This document shows, piece after piece, positions 13,111-41,925 of a stretch of DNA of 64,000 bases; the first letter of the stretch is position 1, and the number at the start of each line of letters is the position of its first letter. The DNA comes from Bacillota bacterium (lineage in GTDB: Bacteria > Bacillota > Bacilli > Alicyclobacillales > SLC66). The notes beneath the pieces are model-generated. The model was not told where the DNA came from and made no database searches. It saw nothing but the letters and a program-made list of their open reading frames with translations. Location: assembly GCA_021846285.1 (NCBI GenBank), contig JAJZCB010000003.1, forward strand, positions 1-64,000. The letters run 5' to 3'. A program made the position numbers and the translations under genes.

Positions 13111-13228
13111 AATATCCCTTGGTCTCCATTTCCATTGAGGAAGCGACACTCATGTGGCAGGCAGGGTCACAATCGTTCCGTCTCGGGTAACCCTTGCTAA
13201 AGAATCCAAGCGAAACGGGGAATTCGCC

Positions 13229-14746: not shown

Positions 14747-15053
14747 TAAAAAATCATGTCAACAGATTCGATGCCTTCTATGGATAGATAGGTGTTTATC
14801 GACGCCAAGGCGAACGCCAGCCACCACCACCACCAGCCGCCGGCCCACCAGCCACCGTAACCACGTCCGGCTCCATAACCTGGAGCCCCTCCCCATGGAC
14901 CATATCGTGGAACTCCATAGCCAGGTCCGTAAGCGGGACCGTAGCCCCACTGCGCCAGAGCCAAATCCAACCTCTCTTGGTCACTGCCTTGCAGTTGCTG
15001 ACCACCTGCCGGTGCTGCCGGTGCGTATTGACGGGGTACGCGCATCAGTACAC
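14728..15053 (-). pseudogene. 3' fragment of the split host gene (Gly/Tyr/Trp-rich protein)
   Basis: About 107 codons remain: VLMRVPRQYAPAAPAGG, then an acidic helix, repeats of the GPGYG type, GGWWAGGWWWWW and a hydrophobic tail. There is no ribosome-binding site at its first ATG. Its frame runs through the att core (codons GTA CTG) exactly as in the 5' fragment at 41,812-41,925, so the two join into one gene of about 142 codons when the element is removed. The composition suggests a spore- or surface-associated protein, which is a weak inference. Its last 19 bases overlap the end of Int1, so the natural C-terminus may also have been altered. Confidence 0.75.
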
Positions 15054-15071
15054 TTTGACAGTCGAAACTAC
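15030..15071. other. attL of the 26.8-kb element
   Basis: The core CAGTACAC lies at 15,046-15,053. The left arm is host sequence and codes for the split host protein. The right arm (15,052-15,071, ACTTTGACAGTCGAAACTAC) matches the inverted attR element arm at 14 of 20 positions. The inferred crossover dinucleotide is AC at 15,050-15,051. Confidence 0.82.
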
Positions 15072-15109: not shown

Positions 15110-16246
15110 TTATGTGACCGCCTGGGAGGTTTGGCAGCGTTGCTCTGCCCGTGCTTCGGGGTTGTCCACTATGCGTGAACGAGTCAGGTGTCGACCGAGC
15201 CATATGGACGGACGTTCGAGGTAGCGATAGCCTAAAGTTGCGACGCCTAAACTGAGTGCCACAGTACCGGCCAAGATCAAGTAGGGGGGCACCTCGTGGA
15301 CGAGGAGGTTCATTAGCGTCAGCAAGACGACGAGATGCACCAGATACAGGCTGTACGAGATATGCCCAATGAAGACAAGTGGCCTCATTCGAAGAAACTC
15401 TTGGAACCTCGCCGACGACAAGGCTGCCAAAAGGAAGTAGCACGCTGCAAACATTGTGAACCAATCCGATATCAGATCCCCAGCAAGTCCCCAAGTCCAG
15501 GAAATGCTGTTCCCCCACGTATAGAGGACGAATGCTACCGCCCCCGCAACAACTTTTGTGGTCGTTGCGCGCGTGCGAAGAAACTCGGTCAGCCCAATGC
15601 GGTGCTTGGCCAGCAGTGCCCCCGCGATAAACATGAGCGCGTAGTGCGCGGTATCGAAATAATTCGTGAAGAAATCCACATTGCTCTGATACCGCAAATG
15701 CAGGACAATTCCGCACGCGGATAACAGGAAACCCGTCAGCAAGTTCCAGCGCCAGTTTGCTCTGAGTACGAACCAAATAAGGAGGGGGAAGATGAGGGCT
15801 ATGCGCATCTCCATGACCAAGGACCAAATGACGGGGTCGAAGTATTTCTGATGGAACTGGTCGATCATCAATACCTGATGCAGAATGGGGAGCCAACTGA
15901 TCTGGCCAGTCCAGAGAGAATTGACGCGGATTCTGTGGAAGAGCACCCTCATGACGAGACCAAAAGCGATCGCCGCGATGTACGGCGGGTACAACCTGCA
16001 GAAGCGTCGTATCAGGAAGGTGCGGTAGTTGTGTGGCCGGCCGGAGATGTACGGGAGGGCCAGCACAAACCCGCTTAGGAGAAAAAAGAAGATTACGGCT
16101 TGGTGGCCCGCCAGAAGCACCTGCAAAGGCGAGAAGTATAAGAAGGGAACCGCCGCCCCAATGCCAAGCAAAGTCGTGCTATGGTACAGCACAACACTCA
16201 GAGACGCGAGCCCGCGCAAAGAGTCGAGTTCCTTCAAATGATCCAC
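15110..16246 (-). CDS. Acyltransferase 3 family membrane protein (OafA-like)
   Basis: This protein of about 378 residues has roughly ten hydrophobic segments and the family opening LKELDSLRGLASLSVVLYHS, whose histidine is catalytic in the family. The second motif region is FLIRRFCRLYPPY. Such enzymes O-acetylate cell-surface or exported glycans. The GTG at 16,246 with GGGGGCG upstream gives the typical short N-terminus. It is the leftmost gene of the element, 57 bases from the attL core, and follows the sugar-activation genes, so a role in modifying host surface or virion glycan is plausible. Confidence 0.82.
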   Translation of the reverse strand: MDHLKELDSLRGLASLSVVLYHSTTLLGIGAAVPFLYFSPLQVLLAGHQAVIFFFLLSGFVLALPYISGRPHNYRTFLIRRFCRLYPPYIAAIAFGLVMRVLFHRIRVNSLWTGQISWLPILHQVLMIDQFHQKYFDPVIWSLVMEMRIALIFPLLIWFVLRANWRWNLLTGFLLSACGIVLHLRYQSNVDFFTNYFDTAHYALMFIAGALLAKHRIGLTEFLRTRATTTKVVAGAVAFVLYTWGNSISWTWGLAGDLISDWFTMFAACYFLLAALSSARFQEFLRMRPLVFIGHISYSLYLVHLVVLLTLMNLLVHEVPPYLILAGTVALSLGVATLGYRYLERPSIWLGRHLTRSRIVDNPEARAEQRCQTSQAVT

Positions 16247-16320
16247 TGTGCCCGCCCCCAATCCCAAAACTAGCACTCTGAGACAGGCGTCCGCTGCCTG
16301 GAAGGGCGCCCGACAGGCGT

Positions 16321-16707
16321 TTATTTCCCGGAGTGCGCCTTTCGCGTCGTCGGGTTCACTATGATAGGAGAACTAAATCGCCCCAACCCAACGGCATTAT
16401 AAGCCGCCACAACGTACTGGCCGCTGCGCGGGAACTGCATCATGTAGTAGGGCGCCAATAAGGCAGATGTTGCGGATCTCCCATTGCGTTCTACCACGTA
16501 AGACATCGCCCCGGCAACCGGGTTCCATTGTAATTCAGGAACCCCGTGCCATGTCACCATCCGGACGTGTTGGGGCACGCCCGGCAGAGCTTGGCGCGAT
16601 GCCGCCGCGACACCGAGGCTGGCAATCACCAAAGCAGCCGTAAGGGTCCAGACTGAGAGAATTGCAGCACCAAATTCTCCAGAGCGTGCGAAACGCGGAT
16701 TCCTCAT
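16321..16707 (-). CDS. Small exported fibronectin type III protein
   Basis: This 128-residue protein has a long N-terminal hydrophobic signal or anchor (about residues 14-36) and one fibronectin type III-like domain (PELQWNPVAGAMSYVVERNG to YVVAAYNAVGLGRFSSP). The same domain style is found in the 505-residue surface protein of the element. Its ribosome-binding site AGGAGG overlaps the manC stop, so it belongs to that operon. The function is unknown. It may be an accessory virion or cell-surface protein. Confidence 0.65.
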   Translation of the reverse strand: MRNPRFARSGEFGAAILSVWTLTAALVIASLGVAAASRQALPGVPQHVRMVTWHGVPELQWNPVAGAMSYVVERNGRSATSALLAPYYMMQFPRSGQYVVAAYNAVGLGRFSSPIIVNPTTRKAHSGK

Positions 16708-16722
16708 TGCTTTTGTTCCTCC

Positions 16723-17706
16723 TCATCCCGTCTCTTTGAGCGCGTCCTTGATGGCGTCTGCAGCGGATTTGCCCGTAACTAAAATGCCGTCTCCCGTAGC
16801 CACGACGATGATGTCCTTCAACCCATTGACAACCACAGGCATTGGGAGTTTGTTCACGACGCGCGTTCCCTCGGAGTCGTGCAGCACCGAGTTTCCATCG
16901 GAGTCCACCTCGCCAGCCGAAAGGAACGAATCCCACGTGCCGAGATCCGACCAGTTCCCCAAGTACGTCTTCGCGATGATGTGCGTAGCTTTTTCCGCCA
17001 CGACTCTATCAAAGCTATTTATCGGAAGATCGCCATAATGGTCCGTCATTTCCCGGTAGTGCGTTGGATACCCCAGGGTGCGTAGTATGCCTTTCAGGTA
17101 TCCTACTGAAAAACAGTAAACCCCGGAGTTCCATAGCGCCCCGGCCTGCACCAATCGGATGGCCGAAGCGGCAGAGGGCTTCTCGATGAAACCGCTTACG
17201 CGAATTCCTGCGGCTGTGGCTTCTCCAAGCAATAAATACCCGAACTTCGTGCGCGGCGCATTGGGACGGATGCCCAAAGTGGCCAGGTCTGCGCCGGAGT
17301 ATCGCAGGGCGACTGGGAGTTTTGAGGCTTCCCGGTAAAACTCGTCATCCGCCAAATGGTCGGCAGGGAGAACGAGGATCGTTTCTTCATCCCGCATGTT
17401 GTAATATGACGCGCAGGCCAACGTGCTTAGCGCGATCGCCCCAAAGGTGTCCCGTCGATGAGGTTCTTGAATAATGGAGACCTCACCCAGCTGTTCTCGA
17501 ATGAGGGAGACCTGATCCCCTGCCGCGCAGATCGAGGCCACCCGGTAAAGTCCGGTCTTCCTGAGTTGGCCCCAGATGCGCTGGAGCATGCTGACCGATT
17601 CCCCATTCTCGTTTCGGAATAAGGGATAAAATTGCTTCGGTAGCCGTCCGTTTGACAAAGGCCACAGTCGGCTGCCCACCCCTCCGGAAAGCAAAACTAC
17701 TCTCAT
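16723..17706 (-). CDS. manC: Mannose-1-phosphate guanylyltransferase
   Basis: This 327-residue nucleotidyltransferase makes GDP-mannose from GTP and mannose-1-phosphate. The signature LSGGVGSRLWPLSNGRLPKQF is at the N-terminus, FIEKP near the middle, and a partial beta-helix at the end. The phosphomannose-isomerase domain found in long ManC/AlgA enzymes is absent. The ATG at 17,706 has AGGAGG at 7 bases. An upstream ATG would add 12 residues. It lies in the element beside a polyprenyl-phosphate mannose synthase and a mannosyltransferase, giving a short mannosylation route. Confidence 0.85.
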   Translation of the reverse strand: MRVVLLSGGVGSRLWPLSNGRLPKQFYPLFRNENGESVSMLQRIWGQLRKTGLYRVASICAAGDQVSLIREQLGEVSIIQEPHRRDTFGAIALSTLACASYYNMRDEETILVLPADHLADDEFYREASKLPVALRYSGADLATLGIRPNAPRTKFGYLLLGEATAAGIRVSGFIEKPSAASAIRLVQAGALWNSGVYCFSVGYLKGILRTLGYPTHYREMTDHYGDLPINSFDRVVAEKATHIIAKTYLGNWSDLGTWDSFLSAGEVDSDGNSVLHDSEGTRVVNKLPMPVVVNGLKDIIVVATGDGILVTGKSAADAIKDALKETG

Positions 17707-17849
17707 GCCGCAACTCCTCCTATCGTGTTCTTCGACTGTCAAATGCGACGGCTTCTGAGCAGATAGATTCCTCCGCTCGCGCCGCGATCCCGCGCGGTTA
17801 ATCGAGGACTCACTGACGGCCAGCCACCCTGAACGCCGTCGCGCACGGA

Positions 17850-18947
17850 TTACGGTATTTCACGCACGCCGGAGACCATTCGCGCCCGTTTCTTCCAAAC
17901 CCAGAGGGAGCTTGCCGCGAAGTTCCACGCCGTGGCAGCCCCGATCCCGACTAAGTTCGCCAAGATCAAATTCGCATCCAGAACCCGGACCAATGCGGAG
18001 AGAACGCCCACGTCGAGCACGACACCCACCCCAGACGCCAGAGCGTACTTGCAGGCACGGGTAAGCCACGCCTCCCTTCCGTGGCTCTCTCTCCACGTCA
18101 CGCCGTCATTAAGTGCGAAATTAGAGATCATGGCCGCCAGTGCGGACAGGAACCCGGAAGTTTCCGGTGGCAGGCCCAGAGTCACCAGAAGGATATACAC
18201 AAGAGAGTTCAGCAGGACCCCGGAGATGCCCACGCAGGCAAACACGTAGATCCGGCGATCGTCGGGACTCTCCGCGACCAAGTGGGCGAGATGCCTGGTG
18301 AAGTTCCACTGCTCCTTTAGGGACATCTTAGATTGACCAGTCGCCCTGGGCGCAAACGCATAGGGAATCTCGGCGACGCGCGCGTAATGTCCGCGCGCAA
18401 GGATCTCAATGAGAATCTTCCATCCTATGGGACGCAACGAGATGCCCTCGATGACGTCTCGCCGAAACATGAAATACCCGCTCGTAGGATCGCTCGACAG
18501 GCGTACCCGCTTCAGGGCCGCTTTAGCCATCGTACGCGCGATCCCCGAGATGACCTTGCGCGGGAGCGACAGACCGCCGTCGCTCCCACCAGGGATGAAA
18601 CGACTGGGAATCACCACGTCGTGTCCCGCTTGGATCTGGGCAAACATGGGAAGGAGCATTTCCGGGGGATGCTGCATATCTGCGTCCATAACTGCGACCA
18701 CATCCCCACGGGCCAATTCGAACCCCCGTAGCACGGCGGCGCCCAGGCCCCGGTTATTTGCGCGATGTTCACACCGGATACGCGGATTAGCCTGGGCCAT
18801 CTGTTGCAAGATCTCCTCCGTTTCGTCCGTGCTGTCGTCCACGAAAATAATCTCGTACTCATGATCGCGCAAAGCCCATTTGATCGCCTTGGCGACCTTC
18901 GTCACGTTGTTCCGCTCGTTGTACGTGGGCACAATGATGGATATCAT
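17850..18947 (-). CDS. Polyprenyl-phosphate mannose synthase with GtrA domain
   Basis: This 365-residue fusion has an N-terminal family-2 glycosyltransferase (IIVPTYNERNNV, FVDDSTDET, VMDADMQHPPE, IPSRFIPGG) of the Dpm1 type. A C-terminal GtrA-like domain with four membrane segments follows. Enzymes of this architecture move mannose or glucose from a nucleotide sugar to a lipid phosphate carrier and help it cross the membrane. The ATG at 18,947 follows GGAGGTGGGGAG and starts right at the conserved strand. Together with ManC and the PIG-V-like protein it can supply lipid-linked mannose for extracytoplasmic transfer. Confidence 0.85.
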   Translation of the reverse strand: MISIIVPTYNERNNVTKVAKAIKWALRDHEYEIIFVDDSTDETEEILQQMAQANPRIRCEHRANNRGLGAAVLRGFELARGDVVAVMDADMQHPPEMLLPMFAQIQAGHDVVIPSRFIPGGSDGGLSLPRKVISGIARTMAKAALKRVRLSSDPTSGYFMFRRDVIEGISLRPIGWKILIEILARGHYARVAEIPYAFAPRATGQSKMSLKEQWNFTRHLAHLVAESPDDRRIYVFACVGISGVLLNSLVYILLVTLGLPPETSGFLSALAAMISNFALNDGVTWRESHGREAWLTRACKYALASGVGVVLDVGVLSALVRVLDANLILANLVGIGAATAWNFAASSLWVWKKRARMVSGVREIP

Positions 18948-19070
18948 GCGCTCCCCACCTCCCGCAGCCACGTCCGCGTAGCCCTACTCACACCAAGTTT
19001 CTTAGGGACCACTGGGAACTCCTTCACCTTCTTCATCGCGAAATGCCACTCCCGCTTCCAGCCATTCCAG

Positions 19071-22164: not shown

Positions 22165-22525
22165 TAGAATTCTCCTTCCCCAAAGGACCACCGATAAAGG
22201 GCCACGACGTGCCGGGGCTCCGAACCACGCGGGCCCGGACGGGCAGATCCCCTTCGGCCACGAGATAGTAGCTATGCCGGCCAATGGCCAGATGCTGCTC
22301 GCGCAACTCCTCGCGTCTCTGCCTGCTCAATAGATCGCGATGCACTGCCCAATGCTTGGTGGCCCGCAGGATGTCTACCGCCTGGATGAGCTCCCTGTCA
22401 TACTGGTGGCGCCGGATTCGCGGAACCAGAACGCGCATCGGAATGCTCGGGTAGAGATAGGCCAAACGCAGCGGGTCTTTCTGCTTTTCGCGCGTTGCGG
22501 ATGTCGGACGGGTTGATCCAGCCAC
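22154..22525 (-). CDS. Unknown basic protein following the Zot-like ATPase
   Basis: This 123-residue Arg-rich soluble protein starts at a GTG with a strong AGGAGGAG site 6 bases upstream. It overlaps the last 128 bases of the Zot-like gene in another frame. I do not recognise a domain. The C-terminal part (AIGRHSYYLVAEGDLPVRARVVRSPGTSWPF) looks like beta structure. It is co-transcribed with the putative assembly genes. Confidence 0.65.
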   Translation of the reverse strand: MAGSTRPTSATREKQKDPLRLAYLYPSIPMRVLVPRIRRHQYDRELIQAVDILRATKHWAVHRDLLSRQRREELREQHLAIGRHSYYLVAEGDLPVRARVVRSPGTSWPFIGGPLGKENSNDA

Positions 22526-23171
22526 TGGGCTCTCCTCCTAACTGGATGGCGTCCCGTTCTCGGGCCGCAGCCTCGCGCTGCCGATCGATGATCCGCTGCA
22601 GCAACTGAATCTGGTCGCGCTCCGTCTTCGGACTGGGGAACGGGTAGAGCATCTGATCCGTATCGTAGAGCTCCAGAGCGAAGAGCTGCTTGACCCTTGC
22701 CCACGATATTCGCGCCGTTCTCAACTGGCGACCCCATTGGCCAAATCTCTTGTCCTGAAATTCGTACATGTCGAGATAGATGGCGCGATTCTGACTCTTA
22801 CGGACGTGAATGAACACTTCCACAAGGTCCAAGATGCGTGAATCGAGGTTCGCGCCGACCGGGTTAATGAACACGTGGACCGCGCGCAGCTTCCGGGTCA
22901 TATTGAAGATTTGTGTGGCAAAGGTGTTACGGGTCCAGAGGCGCCGGTCGTATTGCGTCTGAGCCTCATCCCAAATGATTACGCTCCCACGCGCGTCAGC
23001 CACCTCCAGCCAGCGATCGGCGCGATCGAACGGCGTTGCGCCCGCCAGGTCGTAGTTGGCAAAGATCCTTGCCTCCCCGCCACTGCGAATCCGCCAATAG
23101 TGGGCCAATACGGAAGCCATCAGCGTTTTACCGGCCCCAAGGCCGCCCTCAATGAGAATGAAATGGGGCAT
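22398..23171 (-). CDS. Zot-like (filamentous phage pI family) P-loop ATPase
   Basis: This 257-residue ATPase starts directly with a Walker A (IEGGLGAGKT, residues 7-16) and has Walker B VIIWDEAQ at about residues 64-71. An Arg/Asn sensor region (MTRKLRAVHVFINP) follows. N-terminal Walker A plus the DEAQ box is characteristic of Zot/pI morphogenesis ATPases within the FtsK-HerA group. Unlike classical pI, no C-terminal membrane segment is visible. A small upstream gene (23,543) has one instead. The start overlaps the previous stop by one base (TAATG). The likely role is virion assembly or extrusion. Confidence 0.72.
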   Translation of the reverse strand: MPHFILIEGGLGAGKTLMASVLAHYWRIRSGGEARIFANYDLAGATPFDRADRWLEVADARGSVIIWDEAQTQYDRRLWTRNTFATQIFNMTRKLRAVHVFINPVGANLDSRILDLVEVFIHVRKSQNRAIYLDMYEFQDKRFGQWGRQLRTARISWARVKQLFALELYDTDQMLYPFPSPKTERDQIQLLQRIIDRQREAAARERDAIQLGGEPSGWINPSDIRNARKAERPAAFGLSLPEHSDARSGSANPAPPV

Positions 23172-26084: not shown

Positions 26085-26264
26085 TTAGCCGCGGCTTCCC
26101 CGGGAGAATACGCCTTTGATAAAGCCGACAAGCTTGGGTGCGAACATGAGGGCCATGGCCAGTAGAATAAAGCCTGCCACCGATCCAACGAGTGCGGCCG
26201 AGTTCGATACAATGTCGTTCGCGGTGAAGCCAAAGCTGATGCCAGTTGACGGAATGACGTTCAC
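26085..26264 (-). CDS. Small membrane protein, coat-like paralogue B
   Basis: This 59-residue protein starts VNVIPSTGISFGFTANDIVS, has one hydrophobic helix, then PKLVGFIKGVF and a basic end RGSRG. It is very similar to paralogue A at 19,071-19,256, although A ends in acidic residues and this one in basic residues. The GTG start overlaps the previous TGA (GTGA). Being one of two coat-like copies, with the same anchor also in the spike, it is the best candidate for the major virion protein. Confidence 0.75.
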   Translation of the reverse strand: MNVIPSTGISFGFTANDIVSNSAALVGSVAGFILLAMALMFAPKLVGFIKGVFSRGSRG

Positions 26265-27042: not shown

Positions 27043-27269
27043 TTGTCACCTCTCTGGCCGGGAGGCTACAATTTTCGCGACCAGGAGCGATCCGCTAGCC
27101 ACGCGCTGACCGCTCCCTGCGCACCCGGCGGGCAGGCCAAATGCACTGCGCCCATAGACCAAGCCTGGAGCGCGCCGCATCGGGGGGCAACCGCCGAATT
27201 TCGCCGATTCTATCCCCTTTTTAAGCCGGTTTTAGTCGGTTTTGAGCTCACGTGCGCTGAGCGCATTTT
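27043..27269. other. Non-coding interval, possible promoter or origin
   Basis: These 227 bases separate the replication-side genes from the structural-side genes in an otherwise gapless leftward block. They include the direct repeat AAAACCGACT/AAAACCGGCT (minus strand, about 27,220-27,242) and a short hairpin TGCGC-TGA-GCGCA at about 27,250-27,263, then AT-rich sequence. A structural-operon promoter or replication origin would fit here. Neither is proven. Confidence 0.4.
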
Positions 27270-27788
27270 TCACTTATTTTTTCCTTCCCCCCTCCGAATC
27301 CCATTAGGAAACCACCATGTGGTATTCCTCAATCGGTCTTTTTCGACTCGCTGCCCCTTGGCGCGCCTACGAGAGAACAAAATTTTCGTAATGGCCGCGG
27401 CAGCCCCAATGGCCGCCAAATTCCCCAGCACGCCAACGACGAAGTGCACGCGGGGGCGAAAGATCCAGAGCGGACGCCGTGGAGCGGCCCCTGCCCGGCC
27501 CTGTTTCGCATAGGAAAATGTGTGACCCCCGCCTCTTTGCTGCCGGTGGCGATTCTCAGAGATCTCCGCGGCCAGGAAAAGCGCGATCAAGAACACTTCC
27601 ATTCCCAATATGAAGTGCCCAGGAGACGCAAAGTACATATGGGATTTGATCGCGTAGTTGTACATGGCTACATAGGCAGCATCGCCGGGCGAAGCGTGCG
27701 GGCCCGCGTGAAGCAATGGGAGCTGGGCGGCATCTCGAGCGCCCTGGGGGATGCTGACCCTGCGGGCCAAGAGCAAATGTGGCCTCAT
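27270..27788 (-). CDS. Two-helix membrane protein of unknown function
   Basis: This 172-residue protein has hydrophobic segments near residues 59-77 (FILGMEVFLIALFLAAEI) and 115-137 (FVVGVLGNLAAIGAAAAITK), with an Arg-rich segment between and a very basic C-terminus. The ATG at 27,788 has GGAGGAG upstream and overlaps the remA-like stop (ATGA). It is the last gene before the non-coding interval. Confidence 0.65.
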   Translation of the reverse strand: MRPHLLLARRVSIPQGARDAAQLPLLHAGPHASPGDAAYVAMYNYAIKSHMYFASPGHFILGMEVFLIALFLAAEISENRHRQQRGGGHTFSYAKQGRAGAAPRRPLWIFRPRVHFVVGVLGNLAAIGAAAAITKILFSRRRAKGQRVEKDRLRNTTWWFPNGIRRGEGKNK

Positions 27789-28090
27789 GCCTGCTCCTCC
27801 AGTACGTCAGCGGTGGTTCCGATGACCAATGCGGGCCCGCTCTCGGCGCCCGAGTGTCCGAGTCGTGTGGCCAGCGTCTCCGCGAGCAGCGAGCTGACAA
27901 TGACGTGATCACTGTCGCAGAAAATAACCGAACGCATCTGGCGGCCCTTGGTGGCGTCTATTACTTTTCCCCGAGACTTCGCGTCCTGGATGAGGCGTCG
28001 AACTGGTGATGAATCACTCGGAACGATGGTCACAATCCGCCCTACAAATACCGTCGCCCCGTACCCCACATTGACTAGCTTTAGCTCCAA
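27785..28090 (-). CDS. RemA-family DNA-binding protein (DUF370)
   Basis: This 101-residue protein aligns along nearly its whole length with RemA/YlzA of Bacillus. It shows LVNVGYGATVFVGRIVTIV, SSPVRRLIQDAKSRGKVIDAT, GRQMRSVIFCDSDHVIVSS and then AETLATRL. RemA forms ring-shaped oligomers that bind DNA and activate biofilm-matrix genes. Here it is carried by the element, between the helicase loader and a membrane protein, with overlapping ATGA junctions. It could control element late genes or alter host matrix or osmoprotection genes. The family call is strong and the role is inferred. Confidence 0.85.
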   Translation of the reverse strand: MELKLVNVGYGATVFVGRIVTIVPSDSSPVRRLIQDAKSRGKVIDATKGRQMRSVIFCDSDHVIVSSLLAETLATRLGHSGAESGPALVIGTTADVLEEQA

Positions 28091-28093
28091 AGT

Positions 28094-28945
28094 TTATGCC
28101 TCCCTCTGCCCCAAGCGATAATTCAAATTCATTCCCTCGGTTTGCTCCCCGTCTGTCAGCCGCATGTTAATCAGAAAATGGCTGCACATTTCGTAGATGC
28201 GACTCCCAATGGCTTCGTCGACCTCGCAGAGCCCTTCGATATCTCGCTCACTGGACACAAGGATCGGGAGCTGATTCAGGTAACGGAAATTGACGACGTC
28301 GAACAAGAATTCCAGTTGGAATTCTGTGGGCTCCTTGCGCCCCTTGTACAGGTCGTCCACATACAGAACGTCAGAGTTTTTCAAAGCGCCAAGCAGGCGC
28401 GTCACGGAATCTCCGTGGCCTTTCACTGCGTCACGAAGATCGCCGCTCCCTTCCACCCACGGAAAGTAGTGGACTCCTATCCCTTGTGAGAGAAGGGCGT
28501 TGGAGACCGCGACCAGCAAATGAGTCTTTCCGGCTCCCGAGGGCCCCAGCAATGCCATGCTGTTTTGCCGCCTCAGACGCAAAACATCGAAGTTGTGGGA
28601 GTAAAACTGGGCAGACTCGTAAGCGCGCAGCACGCATGCAGGCCGTCCTTCAACCCTAAAACTCCCAAAGCTGATTTTCTGAAATTCAGGTGAAATATGG
28701 GAAGATGCCATCAACCGTTGTACCCTCCTTCTTGGCACACAATCACAGATGCGCCATGTACATTCGCCATTGTCGGACTGCACGAGATACCCTGTTTCGT
28801 CTCGGCAGATGGGGCACTCGTAGTTCTCATGCGTCGAGGGGGGGCGGTGTCCAATCCGGAACAACGAGTCGCGGTCTACGCTCCTGATTTTCTCGATTCG
28901 CTGTAGAATCTCTTGCGCGACCGGGGCGAACGGTTCCATTGCCAT
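28094..28945 (-). CDS. DnaC/DnaI-like helicase loader ATPase
   Basis: This 283-residue protein has an N-terminal zinc-binding region (CPICRDETGY and CTWRICDCVPRRR) and a AAA+ domain with Walker A LLGPSGAGKTHLL and Walker B VLYVDDLYKG. This is the organisation of phage and plasmid DnaC/DnaI loaders, which place the replicative helicase on the origin. The ATG at 28,945 follows AAAGGAG and lies inside the end of the DnaD-like gene (118-base overlap). It implies theta-type replication using host helicase. Confidence 0.85.
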   Translation of the reverse strand: MAMEPFAPVAQEILQRIEKIRSVDRDSLFRIGHRPPSTHENYECPICRDETGYLVQSDNGECTWRICDCVPRRRVQRLMASSHISPEFQKISFGSFRVEGRPACVLRAYESAQFYSHNFDVLRLRRQNSMALLGPSGAGKTHLLVAVSNALLSQGIGVHYFPWVEGSGDLRDAVKGHGDSVTRLLGALKNSDVLYVDDLYKGRKEPTEFQLEFLFDVVNFRYLNQLPILVSSERDIEGLCEVDEAIGSRIYEMCSHFLINMRLTDGEQTEGMNLNYRLGQREA

Positions 28946-29786
28946 GACGCAGCTCCTTTCGCTCTCTAAATTCCTCGGCTTCCTGTGTGGCGGCAGAGAT
29001 GGTCAGAATCCCTTTCTCTCGCCAGGCCCCAAGTGTCCGAATGGCATACCGCAGGTCCTTCTGGCCCAGCGCGGCCTGCTCGATCGCACGGATGACAAGA
29101 CCTAGTTCCATGCGGTCGTCAAGCGCATAGAGCAGGAGCCGCGAAACTTGAAAATCGGTAGCAAGGATTCCGAATGTCCGTTCGATTACGCTGTGAACCG
29201 CCTTGTATGCCGCTGGATCTCGCTCCACGGGAGATCGTTCCGTGACTTCGGGGATCTCGCGCGCACGCGCGTGTTGCTGGTGCTGTTGGTCTTTTGATGG
29301 TGAAGGAGAAGGTGAAGGTACGGGGAACTGCGGGGAACCATGGGGATTTTCGGGGGTTTGCGGGGCCCCGTGGTTCCCCGTGGGGGTCTGTGGGGCGTTA
29401 TTGCCGATGCCCTCGGGAGCAGGAAAATCGGATTCCATTTTGTCCTTGCCAGGACGGCGATTGGTCCGGTTCATATGTGTTTGAAACTTGTACCAGCGTT
29501 CTTCCGGAATTCGCATATATCGTCTACCGCTGACCTCATAGAGTTCCACAAGGCCCGTTTCGCCAAAGAGAAGGAGGGCGCGCTCAATGTCCTCTGCAGA
29601 GAGGGAGTCCAGGGACGGAAAGATGCGTGCTTTCAGTACCTTGGCGTTCGCCTCGGCCCGCCCCCAATCGTCAAAAGTGAGGAGGATCCATGGCCAGAGG
29701 AGGACCGCCTGCTGATCCTTCTCCCCCACTTCCAGCAGCTTGTCGTCCGAACTCATCTCGCTGGAAATAAAAACCTTGCGCGCCAT
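28827..29786 (-). CDS. DnaD-like replication initiation protein
   Basis: This 319-residue protein has an N-terminal winged-helix region (MARKVFISSEMSSDDKL to RRYMRIPEERWYKFQ), a Pro/Gln-rich linker, and a DnaD/DnaB-II type helical domain around residues 190-265 (ERTFGILATDFQVSRLLLYALDD to LGAWREKGI). Phage replication initiators of Bacillota often have this form and are followed by a DnaC-like loader, as here. A short Ser-Pro repeat (PSPSPSPSK) lies in the linker. It is probably the element's initiator, and its own coding sequence may contain the origin. Confidence 0.82.
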   Translation of the reverse strand: MARKVFISSEMSSDDKLLEVGEKDQQAVLLWPWILLTFDDWGRAEANAKVLKARIFPSLDSLSAEDIERALLLFGETGLVELYEVSGRRYMRIPEERWYKFQTHMNRTNRRPGKDKMESDFPAPEGIGNNAPQTPTGNHGAPQTPENPHGSPQFPVPSPSPSPSKDQQHQQHARAREIPEVTERSPVERDPAAYKAVHSVIERTFGILATDFQVSRLLLYALDDRMELGLVIRAIEQAALGQKDLRYAIRTLGAWREKGILTISAATQEAEEFRERKELRHGNGTVRPGRARDSTANRENQERRPRLVVPDWTPPPLDA

Positions 29787-30964: not shown

Positions 30965-31585
30965 TCATACCTCCCGATAATCCGCAATCACATGTCCGTT
31001 TGCATCGAAGTACCGCGTCTTCCAGTGTGGATGGCAGTACTCCTCATGGAAACTGCCGTCAAGAACGACCGCCCAATTACTGCTGGAATTCGCTCCAACG
31101 ATAGTACCCATCTTGCCGCCCACTTCAATCCGCGTGCCTTGGTGGACAAATGGCATGTTTCTTTGGTCGCGTACCGATGCGAAGGTGTCGGGATTCCCGA
31201 AGAAAGATTGAATGCTGGCTCTACCGATCTTCTTGACGAGTAAGCGGGGCATGATCTCCGCAAACGTCGTTTCCCAAATCCCGTCCTGTAGATACCGATA
31301 GTACGCATACTTCGCCTTTCCCGCCGTTTTGGCCACACAGCGATATCCGAAATCCCATCCGTCCACACGAACCTCAAACTGGAACATTCTCACACCTCCT
31401 CCGGTAAGCGGTTGAAATATATTGCATTTCACAGGCTGGATCTTGCCCACCCGTCCGCGCTGGCTCAACAAATCGACCATGTTTTTTGCGTTAGATTCGT
31501 CCGATCCAATGCCTACGAGAGACCAATCCTCAATGCTGCCACGTTTCCTGGACCAAACCAGAAAAACAGATTTTGCCCGGCTCAT
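30965..31585 (-). CDS. Unknown protein with duplicated N-terminal module
   Basis: This 206-residue frame starts at 31,585 after GGAAGGGTGG and overlaps the methyltransferase stop (ATGA). The first 60 residues (MSRAKSVFLVWSRKRGSIED, GIGSDESNAKNMVDLLSQRG) match the 82-residue protein from copy 1. A second ATG at 31,387 with GGAGGAGG just upstream opens a 140-residue protein (MFQFEVRVDGWDFGYRCVAK). The frame may therefore be a fusion of two formerly separate small genes, or yield two products. No family is recognised. Confidence 0.6.
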   Translation of the reverse strand: MSRAKSVFLVWSRKRGSIEDWSLVGIGSDESNAKNMVDLLSQRGRVGKIQPVKCNIFQPLTGGGVRMFQFEVRVDGWDFGYRCVAKTAGKAKYAYYRYLQDGIWETTFAEIMPRLLVKKIGRASIQSFFGNPDTFASVRDQRNMPFVHQGTRIEVGGKMGTIVGANSSSNWAVVLDGSFHEEYCHPHWKTRYFDANGHVIADYREV

Positions 31586-31640
31586 TCCCACCACCCTTCC
31601 AAATTCGTCTCCACTTCGAACAGATCTGGCTGCGTGAGAA
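31410..31640. repeat. Duplicated segment, copy 2
   Basis: This is the partner of 30,590-30,815. Here the adenine methyltransferase reading frame is intact, so this copy is probably the original. Confidence 0.75.
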
Positions 31641-32433
31641 GTTGATAGTTGGCCAGCACTAACTCCGTGGCCTGTTCCTTGACATCGCATCCAGGTCTCC
31701 CGAATCGGTAGCTGCCGAGTGTGGAGCGTTGCCAGCCAGCGTAGAGTTGATCCACAAACGGATGCGGGTAATAACTCACCATCGCCCGCCCACGGATGTT
31801 TGCCAGCATCGCCGCCAGTTCTCGATGATCGTCCGCCGAGAATCCCCCCTTGTAGTTATGCTCTTGGCCTACATACGGCGGGTCCGCATAGAAAAGTGTC
31901 TGAGGACTGTCGTAGACCCGCAAAACCTCACGAAAATCGCGGCATTCGATCATGACACCTCGCATTCGCTCTGAGAAAGACCGAAACCGATCTGGCACCC
32001 TGGCCCATTTAAGCGCGGGATTAACGCCTGCATGCCGGCTGTGCGCCCACCCTGTTTTGTAGGCGTTCCCGCCTGCAATCGCGGAGCGGTTGCCGTAGAA
32101 CCACCGCACAGCACGCTCAAAAGGATCGTCAGGCGACTCCTCCCACTTCCAGCGCTCAAAGAGGGCGCGTGAGTAAGGAAGGGTTTCGCAGGCTTGGGCA
32201 AACCGATCCGGATCCTCGCGGAGCACCAACAGGAAATTCACCAGGTCACCGTCGATATCGTTATAAACGTCGCAGGATGTTGGCGGTTTGGCCGCGATGA
32301 CATGTGCCCCCCCCCCGAAGAGTTCGACATAGACCTTATGGGGAGGCATGAGGTCGATGAGCCTGTGCGCCAGGCGTGCCTTGCCCCCGAACCAGATCAG
32401 AGGGCTTCGCCATTCGTTAACAGGAGTATTCAT
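31582..32433 (-). CDS. D12-class N6-adenine DNA methyltransferase (Dam-like)
   Basis: This 283-residue enzyme has the FxGxG motif YVELFGGGAHV, the catalytic DPPY (TLFYADPPYVG) and an opening SPLIWFGGKARLAHRL, as in D12-class Dam enzymes. It methylates adenine N6 in DNA. The target sequence cannot be told. I chose the ATG at 32,433, which starts just before the conserved region. It overlaps the previous small gene by 17 bases. There is no partner nuclease beside it, so a protective or regulatory role for the element DNA is likely. Confidence 0.86.
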   Translation of the reverse strand: MNTPVNEWRSPLIWFGGKARLAHRLIDLMPPHKVYVELFGGGAHVIAAKPPTSCDVYNDIDGDLVNFLLVLREDPDRFAQACETLPYSRALFERWKWEESPDDPFERAVRWFYGNRSAIAGGNAYKTGWAHSRHAGVNPALKWARVPDRFRSFSERMRGVMIECRDFREVLRVYDSPQTLFYADPPYVGQEHNYKGGFSADDHRELAAMLANIRGRAMVSYYPHPFVDQLYAGWQRSTLGSYRFGRPGCDVKEQATELVLANYQLLTQPDLFEVETNLEGWWE

Positions 32434-32608
32434 TCGTTCCACGTCCCCTCTGTGCCTCATATTTCTGAGTCTGGAGGTGCCAGCGCTCCATGTCCGCGAC
32501 TGTTATGCCACGGCGGAGCATAAGAACAGAAGAATAGAGTGCGGCTGAGTCCGCATCACCAACCATGCGAAGATACCGCCAAGCCATGTCATATTCGACT
32601 CGGCGCAT
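32417..32608 (-). CDS. 63-residue protein between the two methyltransferases
   Basis: A small protein (MRRVEYDMAWRYLRMVGDAD, GITVADMERWHLQTQKY) starts at 32,608 after GGAGGGAGGGG. It resembles codons 1-50 of the 30,500-30,961 frame. Its start lies inside the end of the C5 methyltransferase and its end inside the start of the adenine methyltransferase. Function is unknown. Confidence 0.6.
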   Translation of the reverse strand: MRRVEYDMAWRYLRMVGDADSAALYSSVLMLRRGITVADMERWHLQTQKYEAQRGRGTNEYSC

Positions 32609-34253
32609 TTTTCTCACCCCTCCCTCCTGGCGCCACCCAGATCTCCGCCGCGTCCATGAGCCACACGCCCTCACTTTGGGCCATGAGCGCGCGCAGTGCT
32701 TCTCCAGCAATAGCGCGGGCGGCGGGCGGTGGCACGTCATTGCCAATGCGCTCCCGCCATTTCGCGTCCGACTTTCCGACGAGTTGGAACGGCGTGCCAT
32801 CCGGCAGGTGAGTAGGAAAGCCTTGGAGCATCGCCAACTCGTATGTGGTGAGTGGGCGGTGCCAGGTTCCGTCTTCCGCGATGGCCACCCAGACGCCATT
32901 ATCGGTGTCGTCAGGAATGCGCGGGTCGGCGACCGCTCCCGCACTGGCGTGGATGTCTCCGGCGCCAATCACAGTTCTGGCGGGTTCATTCCATCCTTGA
33001 ACACCCATTGTTCCTGAACGCGGCGCGCAACCAAGACGCGGATCCGCGATTGACGCCGATGTGTTCATGATCCTGGCCGCACCCCGAACTGTCGGCGCAG
33101 CCTTTTCCCAATCCAGCACCCCGTAGCCACCTGGATGTCCTTGCGCCTTCACGCGGGGGTCTGCCACGCTGATCAGCCCGTTCGCGACGTGTGTTGCGCC
33201 AGTCACCGTGCCAGACGGCTCCGTCCAGTGCGTCAGTCGATAGTGCGTGGTGTGGCGTGTCTTTTCGTCGTTGTTTTCGAAACGCGGATCGGCAATTGCA
33301 GCTGCCGCGTTGCTCCGCCCCCACCCCGCAGCGCCGGTCACAGCGCCACTTGGTTCGTTCCAAGCCTGCACACCCATCGCCCCAGCTCCTCGCGGTGTGT
33401 ATTCCAAGCGATACGCCGTGTGGTCGATCCGCTGCAGGTCACGCCAGTCCCCACCGGCCGGAATCAGTGCGAGTCGCACCCACGTTTTCCACGCGAGGCG
33501 CGGCATCCGGTGCAGCGGCCCGCCCGCCGGATCATCAGGCATCGGGAGCGGCCCAATCACCTGGCCGATGGCGCGTACACGCTGTTTGGTCGGGAGACGC
33601 ACGAAGCTGTCCAGTTTTTGCGGCAGTCGCGCCAAGAGCAGATAGCGCCTGCGATGCTGTGCGAGTCCGCCCAGCTCACCGCAGTCGTGGGTCCGGTCGT
33701 CAAACATGTATCCAACGCGGGTGAGCATCGCGCGAATCTCCGAGAGAAGCGCGTTGCCGCGTGTTTGGATGCGCGGAACGTTCTCGAACAAGATCAACGA
33801 CGGCAGGTCGTCCTCGAACGCCTGGATCGTCAGTCGCAGTCCACGCACCGTGAGGCGATTGAGCGCTTGATACTTGTCTCCAGCGGCGCATTGCTGCGGC
33901 AGGAGTCCGGAGAACCCCTTACACGGTGCAGACAGAAAGACCACATCCGGTGTCTCCCCATCCGTCGCACGCCAGATGTCGTAAGACGTGGCTTCCGTCC
34001 AGTCTGCTGGAGGCTCCTGGCCGTGGAAAGCGACGTAATCCTCACGCGCGAACAGGTCCATCTCAACGGCCGGCGCACTCGTGATGCGTCGGAAGTCCTC
34101 ACACGCCTGCGGATCTACGTCGATCCCGCCCAGCGTCTCGAAATGGCCCATCCGACCCCCGAATTCCTCGCGGGCTTGCTGAAATCCCAGCGCCCCGCCG
34201 CCAATGCCTGAAAACAAATGGAGCACGGTATATATACGTTCTGAGTTAATCAT
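32589..34253 (-). CDS. C5-cytosine DNA methyltransferase with internal repeats
   Basis: This 554-residue enzyme has motif I LHLFSGIGGGALGF, catalytic motif IV SAPCKGFSG, motif VI FENVPRI, motif VIII QHRRRYLLLA and C-terminal motifs IX-X (LTTYELAMLQGFPTHL, RIGNDVPPPAARAIAGEAL). Between motifs VIII and IX it carries four copies of a unit of about 30-40 residues with W-N-E-P, T-V-x-G-A and ending in A-D-P-R. Units of this type occur in some long phage methyltransferases. The ATG at 34,253 follows GGGAGGG. No cognate nuclease is seen. Confidence 0.85.
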   Translation of the reverse strand: MINSERIYTVLHLFSGIGGGALGFQQAREEFGGRMGHFETLGGIDVDPQACEDFRRITSAPAVEMDLFAREDYVAFHGQEPPADWTEATSYDIWRATDGETPDVVFLSAPCKGFSGLLPQQCAAGDKYQALNRLTVRGLRLTIQAFEDDLPSLILFENVPRIQTRGNALLSEIRAMLTRVGYMFDDRTHDCGELGGLAQHRRRYLLLARLPQKLDSFVRLPTKQRVRAIGQVIGPLPMPDDPAGGPLHRMPRLAWKTWVRLALIPAGGDWRDLQRIDHTAYRLEYTPRGAGAMGVQAWNEPSGAVTGAAGWGRSNAAAAIADPRFENNDEKTRHTTHYRLTHWTEPSGTVTGATHVANGLISVADPRVKAQGHPGGYGVLDWEKAAPTVRGAARIMNTSASIADPRLGCAPRSGTMGVQGWNEPARTVIGAGDIHASAGAVADPRIPDDTDNGVWVAIAEDGTWHRPLTTYELAMLQGFPTHLPDGTPFQLVGKSDAKWRERIGNDVPPPAARAIAGEALRALMAQSEGVWLMDAAEIWVAPGGRGEKNAPSRI

Positions 34254-34273
34254 GTTCTTGCCCTCCCACCCAC

Positions 34274-34660
34274 TCACCACCACATCATGACGCCACCATT
34301 TGACGGATCGACCCATAATTGCAACGTGCGATCATACGATGTGCTCCGCTTTCCCCGCAATACCACCTCCACGACCCGCCATCCCTCGTATGACCCGCTC
34401 GCTCTCAGATCGATGACATCCACCACGTTTCGCGCCCCATACCGAGCGTCCATGATGGCGATCTCTTGGGCATAGCGCGTTGTCCAGTGCACATGGTAGG
34501 CCGTGATGGCTGCCACAATGCACAAAAGCATCGCGAGAGGGGGAAGCCAGAGGAGAGGCTTATTTGATCCCCAAATAAAGTCGTCTCTTAAGAACATCAC
34601 TACAATGAGTGAAACGAAGCCGGAGAAAATGCCCACACCGATCAAGAAACCCAGCAACAC
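34274..34660 (-). CDS. Two-helix membrane protein, unknown
   Basis: This 128-residue protein has two N-terminal membrane helices (LLGFLIGVGIFSGFVSLIVV and LLWLPPLAMLLCIVAAITAY) and a soluble C-terminal domain ending VDPSNGGVMMWW. The GTG start lies after GAGGGAGG. It is located among early genes of the element. Confidence 0.6.
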   Translation of the reverse strand: MLLGFLIGVGIFSGFVSLIVVMFLRDDFIWGSNKPLLWLPPLAMLLCIVAAITAYHVHWTTRYAQEIAIMDARYGARNVVDVIDLRASGSYEGWRVVEVVLRGKRSTSYDRTLQLWVDPSNGGVMMWW

Positions 34661-37182: not shown

Positions 37183-37404
37183 TCACGCGCCTGCTTCGGA
37201 TACTTCCTCTTTCCAATCCTTGAGACTGTAGTGTAAAATATCGGTAATAGAAGCAATATCCTCGACCCGAAGCGTCGTGTCCTTCGTGAGGTCGTTTAGG
37301 ATCGCGGCGGCGTAATTTAAGCGGTAGACGACCCGAGCAAGGGGATGCAATTCGCCCCCTGAAGCCTCCTTTGGATGGGTAGGAAACTCCTCATGATCAG
37401 GCAC
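37183..37404 (-). CDS. 73-residue unknown early protein
   Basis: The GTG at 37,404 has GGGGAGG upstream. The C-terminal half is helical (VVYRLNYAAAILNDLTKD, ITDILHYSLKDWKEE). It overlaps the end of the Cro-like gene by 8 bases, so it is the second gene of the leftward operon. Confidence 0.55.
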   Translation of the reverse strand: MPDHEEFPTHPKEASGGELHPLARVVYRLNYAAAILNDLTKDTTLRVEDIASITDILHYSLKDWKEEVSEAGA

Positions 37405-37612
37405 GGTCTCTTTCCTCCCCTCGCGCATCGGCGAAAAACAAATAATCGACCGAGACGCCAAAGTAATTCGCGAGCTTGGCTTGCAAGTCTCTGCGGGGGA
37501 ACCGCTCCCCATTTTCAACCATGGCATATGTCGTTCTCGGAACACCTAGATCGGCTGCCACCTGCGTCTGGGTCCTCTTTCCCCTTAATCTTGCGATCCG
37601 GACATTCTTCAT
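37397..37612 (-). CDS. Cro-like HTH (Xre family) regulator
   Basis: This 71-residue protein is almost entirely an Xre HTH (RIARLRGKRTQTQVAADLGVPRTTYAMVENGERFP). It is the first gene of the long leftward block and is divergent from the cI-like gene. A 39-bp palindrome lies between them. This is the standard layout of a lysis-lysogeny switch, in which Cro opposes the repressor. Confidence 0.82.
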   Translation of the reverse strand: MKNVRIARLRGKRTQTQVAADLGVPRTTYAMVENGERFPRRDLQAKLANYFGVSVDYLFFADARGEERDRA

Positions 37613-37626
37613 TTCCTCACTCCCTC

Positions 37627-37665
37627 AGTCCTTTACTGTGTCTAATTTAGCCACAGTAAAGGACT
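37627..37665. promoter_or_regulatory. Operator palindrome of the lysogeny switch
   Basis: AGTCCTTTACTGTG and CACAGTAAAGGACT form a perfect 14-bp inverted repeat separated by 11 bases. Further AAAGGAC-like half sites follow at about 37,692. It lies 15 bases before the cro-like start and 95 bases before the cI-like start, and it probably binds both regulators. Confidence 0.78.
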
Positions 37666-37759
37666 AAAGTCAAGTATATAAAACACTAAAAAGGACGTTA
37701 AAAGACACAAAAAGGAAATTCACATTTCGTGTCGAAATTGGAACGAGGGGAGGCGCCAT

Positions 37760-38125
37760 ATGGAACAGTTTGGGGATAAAATCATCAAGTTGCGCGCAAT
37801 CAAAGGACTCTCGCAACAAGAGTTGGCGGACAAAATAGGCATTAAACGAAGTTCTTTGGGAATGTATGAAAGAAATGAACGCAAGCCAGGATTCAATGTG
37901 CTCAGGAAATTCGCGAATTACTTCGCCGTCAGTACGGATTATCTAATGGGATTGAATGATGATTCATCTGGAGAACTGGAATATCAAGAATTGCTTGCGG
38001 AGGCGACTGCCAAAGCAGAGGAACTAAAAGCCTCCGCTCTACTCCGGGCCCAAGCGGGAAGCAAAGAAAGTCTACGGGACCTGATTAAAATTCTCGACGC
38101 CTTTAAGCGCGATATGGAGGATTAA
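37760..38125 (+). CDS. cI-like repressor (Xre family)
   Basis: This 121-residue protein has an N-terminal HTH (IIKLRAIKGLSQQELADKIGIKRSSLGMYERNERKP) and a short helical C-terminal oligomerisation region. It lacks a LexA-type protease domain, so induction is probably by the ImmA-like protease encoded next, as in ICEBs1. GAGGGGAGG lies upstream of the ATG. Confidence 0.85.
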   Translation: MEQFGDKIIKLRAIKGLSQQELADKIGIKRSSLGMYERNERKPGFNVLRKFANYFAVSTDYLMGLNDDSSGELEYQELLAEATAKAEELKASALLRAQAGSKESLRDLIKILDAFKRDMED

Positions 38126-38126
38126 T

Positions 38127-38786
38127 TTGCGGGCGACCATAGAGGCCAAGGCACTCGAAGTGCTCTTTACCTGCGGCATTCCCTTGTCGAATACACTGGA
38201 GACTAATCCCATTTCCCTGCGCACTATATTCGCCCGCTACCCTCACCTTATTCTGCGATTTACGGATCTCTCCCCCACAACCGATGGGGCATACGTCAGG
38301 AATGAAAGGGCCCACGCGATCTACATAAACCGAAAGCGCCCCTATGTACGGCGACGATTTTCACTAGCGCACGAGTTTGGCCATTACATCCTGGGCCATC
38401 CCTCGAGTACGTCTACATTCGGATCTCGGAACCACTGGACAGAGGTACAAGCCAATCAATTCGCAGCTTTTTTACTTATGCCCCGCGAGCTGGTGAAATT
38501 ACTGAACAGGCGAATGTGTTCGATCGCGGAAATCGCGCTCTGGTTCCGCGTTTCCGAGCTGGCCATGGCGATCCGTATGGACGAGTTGGGACTGCGAGCC
38601 TTCGAGACCCGGCTGGTGCGCTTTCGCTATCAACGTCTCCGCCAGAGCCTCCCTGCCAGGAAGGGTGGCGAGAAGTGGCTACAGGAACGGATCATTCGGG
38701 ATTTGCGGTCCTTGGACTTTGAAACTCGAGCCCGAGTGATCCGCGCCTTTCTGCCGCTTCAAGGCAAGGAATGCGCCAAGGACTAA
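38127..38786 (+). CDS. ImmA/IrrE-type anti-repressor metallopeptidase
   Basis: This 219-residue protein has the zinc-protease motif SLAHEFGHYILGH and the downstream glutamate region WTEVQANQFAAFLLMP, as in ImmA (DUF955). By family knowledge it cleaves the adjacent Xre repressor and switches the element from lysogeny to excision. A TTG start lies one base after the repressor stop, with GGAGGATTAAT upstream, so the two are coupled. Confidence 0.86.
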   Translation: MRATIEAKALEVLFTCGIPLSNTLETNPISLRTIFARYPHLILRFTDLSPTTDGAYVRNERAHAIYINRKRPYVRRRFSLAHEFGHYILGHPSSTSTFGSRNHWTEVQANQFAAFLLMPRELVKLLNRRMCSIAEIALWFRVSELAMAIRMDELGLRAFETRLVRFRYQRLRQSLPARKGGEKWLQERIIRDLRSLDFETRARVIRAFLPLQGKECAKD

Positions 38787-38818
38787 ATGATTAATATTCG
38801 AATCATCGAAGGGAAAGG

Positions 38819-39529
38819 GTGTGCAGTGAATTGGCAAGACGAAAGAAGCAAGATTGGAGAGACCTCGTTCTAAGTTTGGGTGTCTTGGGGTCTATCTATG
38901 TAGGGTTTTCCGCGTGGGCACATGTGCATCCACATTGGCTAGCGCTCACTTATGGGTCACTACCTTTGGTCGCGTCGATCGTCCTCATGTTTCTCATAGA
39001 CAAACTGATCCGTTCTCTCACTCCGAGCAAAACAACTCAGCGCGGTTCCGAGCGCGTCTCAGCTGCGCCCCGACCAACTGGATCCCGTTCCGTGCGCCCA
39101 GATGAAGAAATACTGCGGGCTCCATTGGACGGCTTGAGTCCCTACGAATTTGAACACTTGCTGGCGCTCTATTTCCGGGACCATGGCTACCGAGTTGAGG
39201 AGAGAGGCGGCAGCGGTGACGGGGGCGTGGACCTGGTTCTGATCGACAAAGAATCCGGGGAGAGAATCGCGGTGCAAGCGAAACACTGGGCAGACCACAG
39301 GCTTGTCGGCCCTGATATCGTCAGGGCGCTCGATTCCTCCCGAAAGAACACCAAACCTGCCTGCTACACCTCCTGGCTAATTACTACCTCTGATCTCACA
39401 CAACAGGCGCGCAGAGAGGCAGATAGAAACCACATGCAGTACTGGCATGGTGGGCTCCTGAGCAGCGAGCTTTCTAAGTGGCCGAAGTGGCAGCCACCCG
39501 GAATGAAATCCAACCGCCGCCCGCGATGA
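38819..39529 (+). CDS. Membrane-anchored Mrr-like restriction endonuclease
   Basis: This 236-residue protein has two N-terminal membrane helices (DLVLSLGVLGSIYVGFSAWA and LPLVASIVLMFLIDKL) and a C-terminal Mrr-type PD-(D/E)xK domain (LSPYEFEHLLALYFRDHGY, GGSGDGGVDLVL, RIAVQAKHW). The active-site acidic residue in GGVDL and the QAK motif are intact. Such proteins are often antiviral nucleases that act on foreign or modified DNA. Here it sits in the lysogeny module, which suggests defence of the host against competing phages. The target is unknown. Confidence 0.8.
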   Translation: MCSELARRKKQDWRDLVLSLGVLGSIYVGFSAWAHVHPHWLALTYGSLPLVASIVLMFLIDKLIRSLTPSKTTQRGSERVSAAPRPTGSRSVRPDEEILRAPLDGLSPYEFEHLLALYFRDHGYRVEERGGSGDGGVDLVLIDKESGERIAVQAKHWADHRLVGPDIVRALDSSRKNTKPACYTSWLITTSDLTQQARREADRNHMQYWHGGLLSSELSKWPKWQPPGMKSNRRPR

Positions 39530-40250: not shown

Positions 40251-40394
40251 GTGACCGAGCAAAATAGAGCGCCTCGGTAGCGCAAGAGGAAATCAAAAAA
40301 AAGGCGTCGGACCGACTATCGTGGCGCGTCGGCACGCTTAAGAATCGGTCAAACGGATTATCCGTGGGGCAAACCAATGTATAGGAAGGATGCG

Positions 40395-41798: not shown

Positions 41799-41840
41799 GT
41801 AGTTTTGCGCATCACAGTACACCCTGATTTGTAACCCGCT
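41799..41840. other. attR of the 26.8-kb element
   Basis: The core CAGTACAC lies at 41,815-41,822. The left arm (41,799-41,818, GTAGTTTTGCGCATCACAGT) belongs to the element and is the inverted partner of the attL right arm. The right arm is host sequence inside the 5' fragment of the split gene. The crossover dinucleotide is AC at 41,819-41,820. Confidence 0.82.
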
Positions 41841-41925
41841 CCACAATGCCTCTGTGCAAACCCCACTGAGTCTGGAATTGGACCCAGCCGCCCCTTGCCT
41901 CTTGGCATTGATCCATCGTGCACAT
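41812..41925 (-). pseudogene. 5' fragment of the split host gene
   Basis: The fragment starts with ATG at 41,925 after a strong GGAGGAGGG. It encodes GGWVQFQTQWGLHRGIVERV and then TNQGVL, and stops at a TGA contributed by the element immediately after the core. The frame continues into the fragment at 14,728-15,053 once the element is removed. It can still be translated as a 37-residue stub. Confidence 0.78.

Follow-up and report, generated by a model that had tools for sequence, protein, structure and literature searches.

A RemA-like protein encoded by a virus-like integrated element, and a phased A/T array that may place the element's structural genes under RemA control

The described system closest to the protein considered here is RemA (YlzA, DUF370/PF04025) of Bacillus and Geobacillus, known mainly from one Bacillus regulon. 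Residues R18, P29, R32, D36 and D59 matter for the RemA ring and double ring, and RemA footprints span at least six 7-bp AT-rich sites with 3-bp spacing, the phased sites being needed (PMC8481266). In Geobacillus RemA, R50A and R51A each abolish DNA binding, and R51A leaves the ring structure unblocked. Among mobile elements, ~200-kb plasmids of Bacillus and Paenibacillus likewise carry a RemA-like gene adjoining a replication gene. Two phage systems also offer points of comparison. In phage phi29, the early DNA-bending and DNA-wrapping proteins p4 and p6 reshape the promoter region and turn on the late genes (PMC3100819). Filamentous phages that encode Zot (inoviruses) resemble the element described below in having a Zot-like ATPase and small coat-like membrane peptides.

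The window, which is the whole 64-kb stretch of DNA that was analysed, contains an integrated element. A small host gene is split into a start (41812-41925, minus strand) and an end (14809-15054, minus strand), and an 8-bp core, GTGTACTG on the minus strand, is common to both junctions. The gene is whole in both congeneric genomes, G012 and G011, and in G012 it reads through the core. Since the split gene and the shared core are found at both junctions and the gene is intact in G012, the element measures ~26.8 kb. The features that define its ends and its particle genes are as follows.

15046-15053, no strand: left attachment core, 8-bp shared core (the gene split here is whole in G011 and G012)
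41815-41822, no strand: right attachment core, 8-bp shared core
40377-41792, plus strand: large serine recombinase (PF00239, PF07508, PF13408), 22 bp from the right core
22398-23171, minus strand: Zot-like ATPase (PF05707, 22.8 bits, cut-off 20.3)
26085-26264, minus strand: 59-aa coat-like membrane peptide, 93% identical in G011, also in L038, L128 and L129
26887-27042, minus strand: first gene of the structural operon, a 51-aa membrane peptide conserved in related elements

The cargo comprises the Zot-like ATPase, small membrane peptides, DnaD, DnaC, a glycosyltransferase, an acyltransferase and two methyltransferases. The element is virus-like, and by its PF05707 match its ATPase is of the Zot/pI-like morphogenesis type of filamentous phages; unlike the inoviruses, the element is 26.8 kb long with DnaD/DnaC replication genes.

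The RemA-like gene lies with these replication genes on one side and the structural operon on the other.

27270-27788, minus strand: 172-aa ORF with a hydrophobic stretch, conserved in G011
27785-28090, minus strand: remA-like gene, 101 aa, TTG start, RemA-like protein (PF04025)
28094-28945, minus strand: DnaC-like helicase loader directly upstream of remA (phrog_50, E 3.4e-39)
28827-29786, minus strand: DnaD-like replication initiation protein (phrog_4016 and phrog_186; PF07261 just below cut-off)

The product of 27785-28090 aligns with all 73 of the 73 positions of the PF04025 profile at 95.6 bits (curated cut-off 26), and it matches Geobacillus RemA of solved structure (7bm2) in sequence with an E value of 1.4e-24. 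The motif GAGGGAGG precedes its TTG start, and TTG is the start codon of the G011 orthologue too. The DnaC-like gene stops 3 bp before remA starts, and the stop of remA overlaps the start of the 172-aa ORF in an ATGA, with the structural operon beyond. The earlier note's description of a RemA homologue inside an integrated virus-like element, coupled to replication and structural genes, is thus confirmed by the profile match, the core-bounded insertion and this gene order.

With residues numbered one-to-one with Geobacillus RemA, the five ring and double-ring residues are all kept, and position 39 is S. Among the DNA-contact residues, R50 and R53 are kept, and R51, which is R in 31 and K in one of 32 canonical RemAs, is Q in the window copy and P in that of G011, so that the canonical trio is incomplete. 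Both element copies have K or R at residue 48, where all 32 canonical proteins have Y or F, and the charge of the loop is therefore kept. DNA binding by the element protein is putative and, judged from these residues, may be retuned or weakened. The window copy further differs from Bacillus and Geobacillus RemA in that an integrated element encodes it, next to replication genes, and in having a C-terminal tail of ~20 residues past the domain. We regard a functional, diverged RemA-family protein, presumably able to assemble into rings, as the best explanation of the gene.

The genome holds three PF04025 genes: canonical remA, remB and the window copy. Among the 51 genomes of the order surveyed, only this one has three, and more than two are found in 6 of 398 genomes of the phylum. 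In the tree suggested by the earlier note, the two element RemAs group together (100/100) and, on a long stem, nest among RemAs from the family to which the host belongs (94/84); the placement is suggestive only, since it rests on 76 columns. The element gene was probably captured from a RemA native to this bacterial family. In the tree, RemA-like proteins from other mobile elements branch elsewhere, but the AU test (p 0.22) is compatible with one common origin for all mobile RemAs.

Related elements allow the locus to be compared. The congeneric G011 carries a syntenic element that spans two contigs (L030 and L031), in which a single 281-aa replication protein stands in place of DnaD and DnaC. 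Its RemA keeps its position directly downstream of the replication gene and is 78% identical to the window RemA. Substitutions between the two genes are mostly silent (pN 0.125, pS 0.78, the latter saturated); judged against this orthologue, the element remA is under purifying selection. Further related elements are found in G045, G055 and A. hesperidum (G028 matches L038). The G045 element is without RemA, the two PF04025 copies of that genome being on other contigs. G055 has a single PF04025 copy on a contig other than that of its element, which is incomplete. The A. hesperidum element and whole genome gave no PF04025 gene. Within genus g10, which includes A. hesperidum, none of the 15 genomes examined has PF04025, and most other genera of the order have two. 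The G055 element contig stops short of the promoter, and close comparison covers four promoters (window, G011, G045 and A. hesperidum).

The region 27,043-27,269, in which the earlier note had proposed looking for repeated RemA boxes, does contain candidate boxes in the form of a phased A/T array.

27184-27243, no strand: 10-bp-phased A/T array, candidate RemA box array, with the top 10-bp A/T periodicity of the window
27151-27156, minus strand: TATGGG, candidate -10 region of the structural promoter, weak and found by eye

We scored 10-bp A/T periodicity in 60-bp windows at 63,941 positions. The maximum for the whole 64 kb (0.243) falls at 27184-27243, a stretch 142-201 bp upstream of the first structural gene; a simpler block score also ranks this stretch high, with five peaks above it. 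Another 47 kb of host DNA stays at or below 0.194 throughout, and one of 2000 dinucleotide shuffles attains the value of the array. In G011, the maximum of both contigs falls in the orthologous region (3 of 2000 shuffles as high), at -208 to -149 from the first structural gene as compared with -201 to -142 in the window. G045, scored once the statistic had been settled, peaks at -207 to -148 when 20 kb are considered. The statistic itself was picked after phased tracts had been seen by eye in the window and G011, the period and region having come from outside, and the elements of the window, G011 and G045 share descent, so that their three arrays are not independent. The arrays of the window and G011 share 50% identity and their flanks 63-70%, which indicates that the phasing is kept while the letters change. 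A. hesperidum scores 0.149 at the same place, with 0.8% of its positions higher, and has no comparable array; three distant relatives of the element gave no clear periodicity peak. As a positive control we used regions upstream of tapA, a published RemA target, which come near the top of their locus, with 14, 22, 6 and 0 of ~3,500 positions higher; the control holds in several genomes, not in all seven tested. A TTGG/TTGA-TAT core can be seen by eye at about -112 in the window, G011 and G045, and a consensus promoter scan gave no minus-strand promoter at the structural operon. Opposite this operon, 27043-27266 (plus strand) contains promoter-like and terminator-like matches at about chance frequency, and a short antisense RNA from there is possible.

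Since the phased array lies just ahead of the particle genes, we propose that RemA is used here for the element's own genes and not for host slime. The element RemA would be made together with the replication proteins; it, the host RemA or both would bind the array at 27184-27243 and wrap its DNA, as is thought to occur at the tapA and epsA promoters, and this wrapping would switch on the weak structural-operon promoter ~30 bp downstream of the array. The particle genes would thereby come after replication, in an early-to-late order. This proposal draws on the family match and the five conserved ring residues, on an extra copy in a cell that already has remA and remB, and on a RemA that stays put while the adjoining replication genes are swapped in G011. 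It also fits the top phasing of the 64 kb and of both G011 contigs in orthologous regions, the G045 maximum at the same relative position, the lack of any similar array in A. hesperidum, whose genome is devoid of PF04025, and the like signal at several tapA promoters. Several observations argue against it. R51, needed for binding in Geobacillus, is replaced in both element copies, and K/R at 48 may or may not compensate for its loss. Phased A/T tracts are also found in curved DNA unconnected with RemA, the statistic was chosen after two sequences had been viewed in elements that share descent, and other phages and plasmids gave no clear phased peak near RemA. Since binding, activation and timing are all things that we infer, we consider activation of the structural promoter by a RemA, host or element, to be about evenly poised. 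The suggestion that the gene is a late-gene regulator nevertheless gains support from an array in the very region named, with DNA binding as the conjectural step.

In G045 the array is present but the element has no RemA, so the protein that binds it may be host RemA alone. This permits a broader reading, in which the element family would have its structural promoter under RemA control through a phased-box array. Host RemA would read the array in some hosts and a retuned element RemA in others, and in hosts without RemA the array would have been lost; a biofilm regulator of the host would thus have been turned into a late-gene switch. We offer this tentatively, as somewhat less probable than its negation. 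Its working would be similar to that of p4 and p6 in phi29, although the proteins are unrelated, with no common descent. The element RemA and its adjoining candidate array may provide a compact system for studying the recognition of phased DNA by RemA rings and the roles of residues 48 and 51. They also point to a recurrent link of RemA-like proteins with the replication modules of mobile elements.

This link suggests another role, in which RemA would be a replication accessory that wraps origin DNA beside the initiator and helicase loader and helps the excised element to replicate. In both elements RemA comes directly after the replication genes, though these are not the same. In unrelated prophages, too, RemA-like genes adjoin replication genes (the order is initiator, helicase loader, RemA in G241 and DnaB, an 86-aa ORF, RemA, SSB in G327), and on the ~200-kb Bacillus and Paenibacillus plasmids, as on G041 contig C7, they stand directly before DnaE. 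The plasmid RemA differs from that of the window in its separate lineage, its GKK or GRK loop and its other kind of element. Because genes of this kind are found repeatedly next to replication genes in mobile elements that are not related, a replication role, and with it the DNA-organiser suggestion of the earlier note, is possible. Against it, the phased array sits at the structural promoter and would be no more than a putative origin, and three related elements replicate, as far as is visible, without a RemA gene of their own. A position after the replication genes is also usual for phage late regulators. On balance we think a replication role unlikely.

On the ~212-kb Bacillus licheniformis plasmid NZ_CP035189.1 (88820-92677 and 117700-118872), the RemA-like gene adjoins the plasmid's own DnaE, and CsrA-like and flagellin genes lie elsewhere. 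None of five mobile RemAs tested had a PHROG match, scans of viral contigs with RemA, Zot and a 119-aa protein gave no match, and our literature search found no paper tying RemA to phages. Eight human-faecal phage records (MT83xxxx) did match; in the three of these that were read (MT835556, MT835604 and MT835528), remA sits in a chromosomal-type cluster (YicC/gmk/rpoZ/priA type), for which reason they look like host DNA and were set aside as phage RemAs. RemA on large "plasmids" of Monoglobus, Pusillibacter and Paenibacillus cellulosilyticus was likewise rejected, the loci being of the chromosomal gmk-rpoZ-priA type.

The loss of R51 raises the further idea of a poison subunit or altered competitor, in which the element copy would join or displace host RemA rings and shift host RemA-dependent expression, including that of the structural promoter. 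Both elements keep the ring residues and lack R51, a combination reminiscent of the Geobacillus R51A protein, which stops binding without losing its ring structure. However, identity to the host RemA is only 51%, and the K/R at 48, where canonical proteins uniformly have Y/F, restores the loop charge. We therefore find this idea quite doubtful. Still less probable is a takeover of host matrix or osmotic-stress genes, the hijacking that the earlier note had put forward. B. subtilis RemA does regulate such genes (PMC8481266), and the element bears genes of surface-glycan type (GT2-GtrA, acyltransferase), but the candidate target array lies in the element itself, no matrix gene was found linked to the element RemA, and the host genome gave no match to the TapA family (TIGR04087). 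That the window gene is the host's sole remA, moved by the insertion, can practically be dismissed because the host keeps both canonical remA (at C154, in the order YicC-remA-coaBC-priA) and remB (at C163, within dnaN-yaaA-recF-remB-gyrB-gyrA) at their usual loci, its remA being 51% identical to the element copy, which lies outside the YicC to gmk/rpoZ/coaBC/priA locus of canonical orthologues.

Some further features were observed in passing. At L004:6968-7442, gmk, the usual direct neighbour after remA, is not seen directly after the host's canonical remA. Within the replication gene of the G011 element, 12-bp tandem repeats (TTGTGCGACGTG, L030:1872-1938) resemble origin iterons. Another large serine recombinase of the window (13154-14746; PF00239, PF07508) lies outside the element, directly adjoining the split gene's left end, and may come from an adjacent element or the remains of one. 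Acyltransferase, nucleotidyltransferase and GT2-GtrA glycosyltransferase genes are found at the element's left end (15110-18971), and surface-glycan modification is possible for them. Adenine-type (PF02086) and cytosine-type (PF00145) methyltransferase genes are adjacent at 31582-34316, and the stretch 37397-39529 resembles a lysogeny-control region, having genes for HTH regulators, for an IrrE-like M78 peptidase and for an Mrr-type endonuclease.
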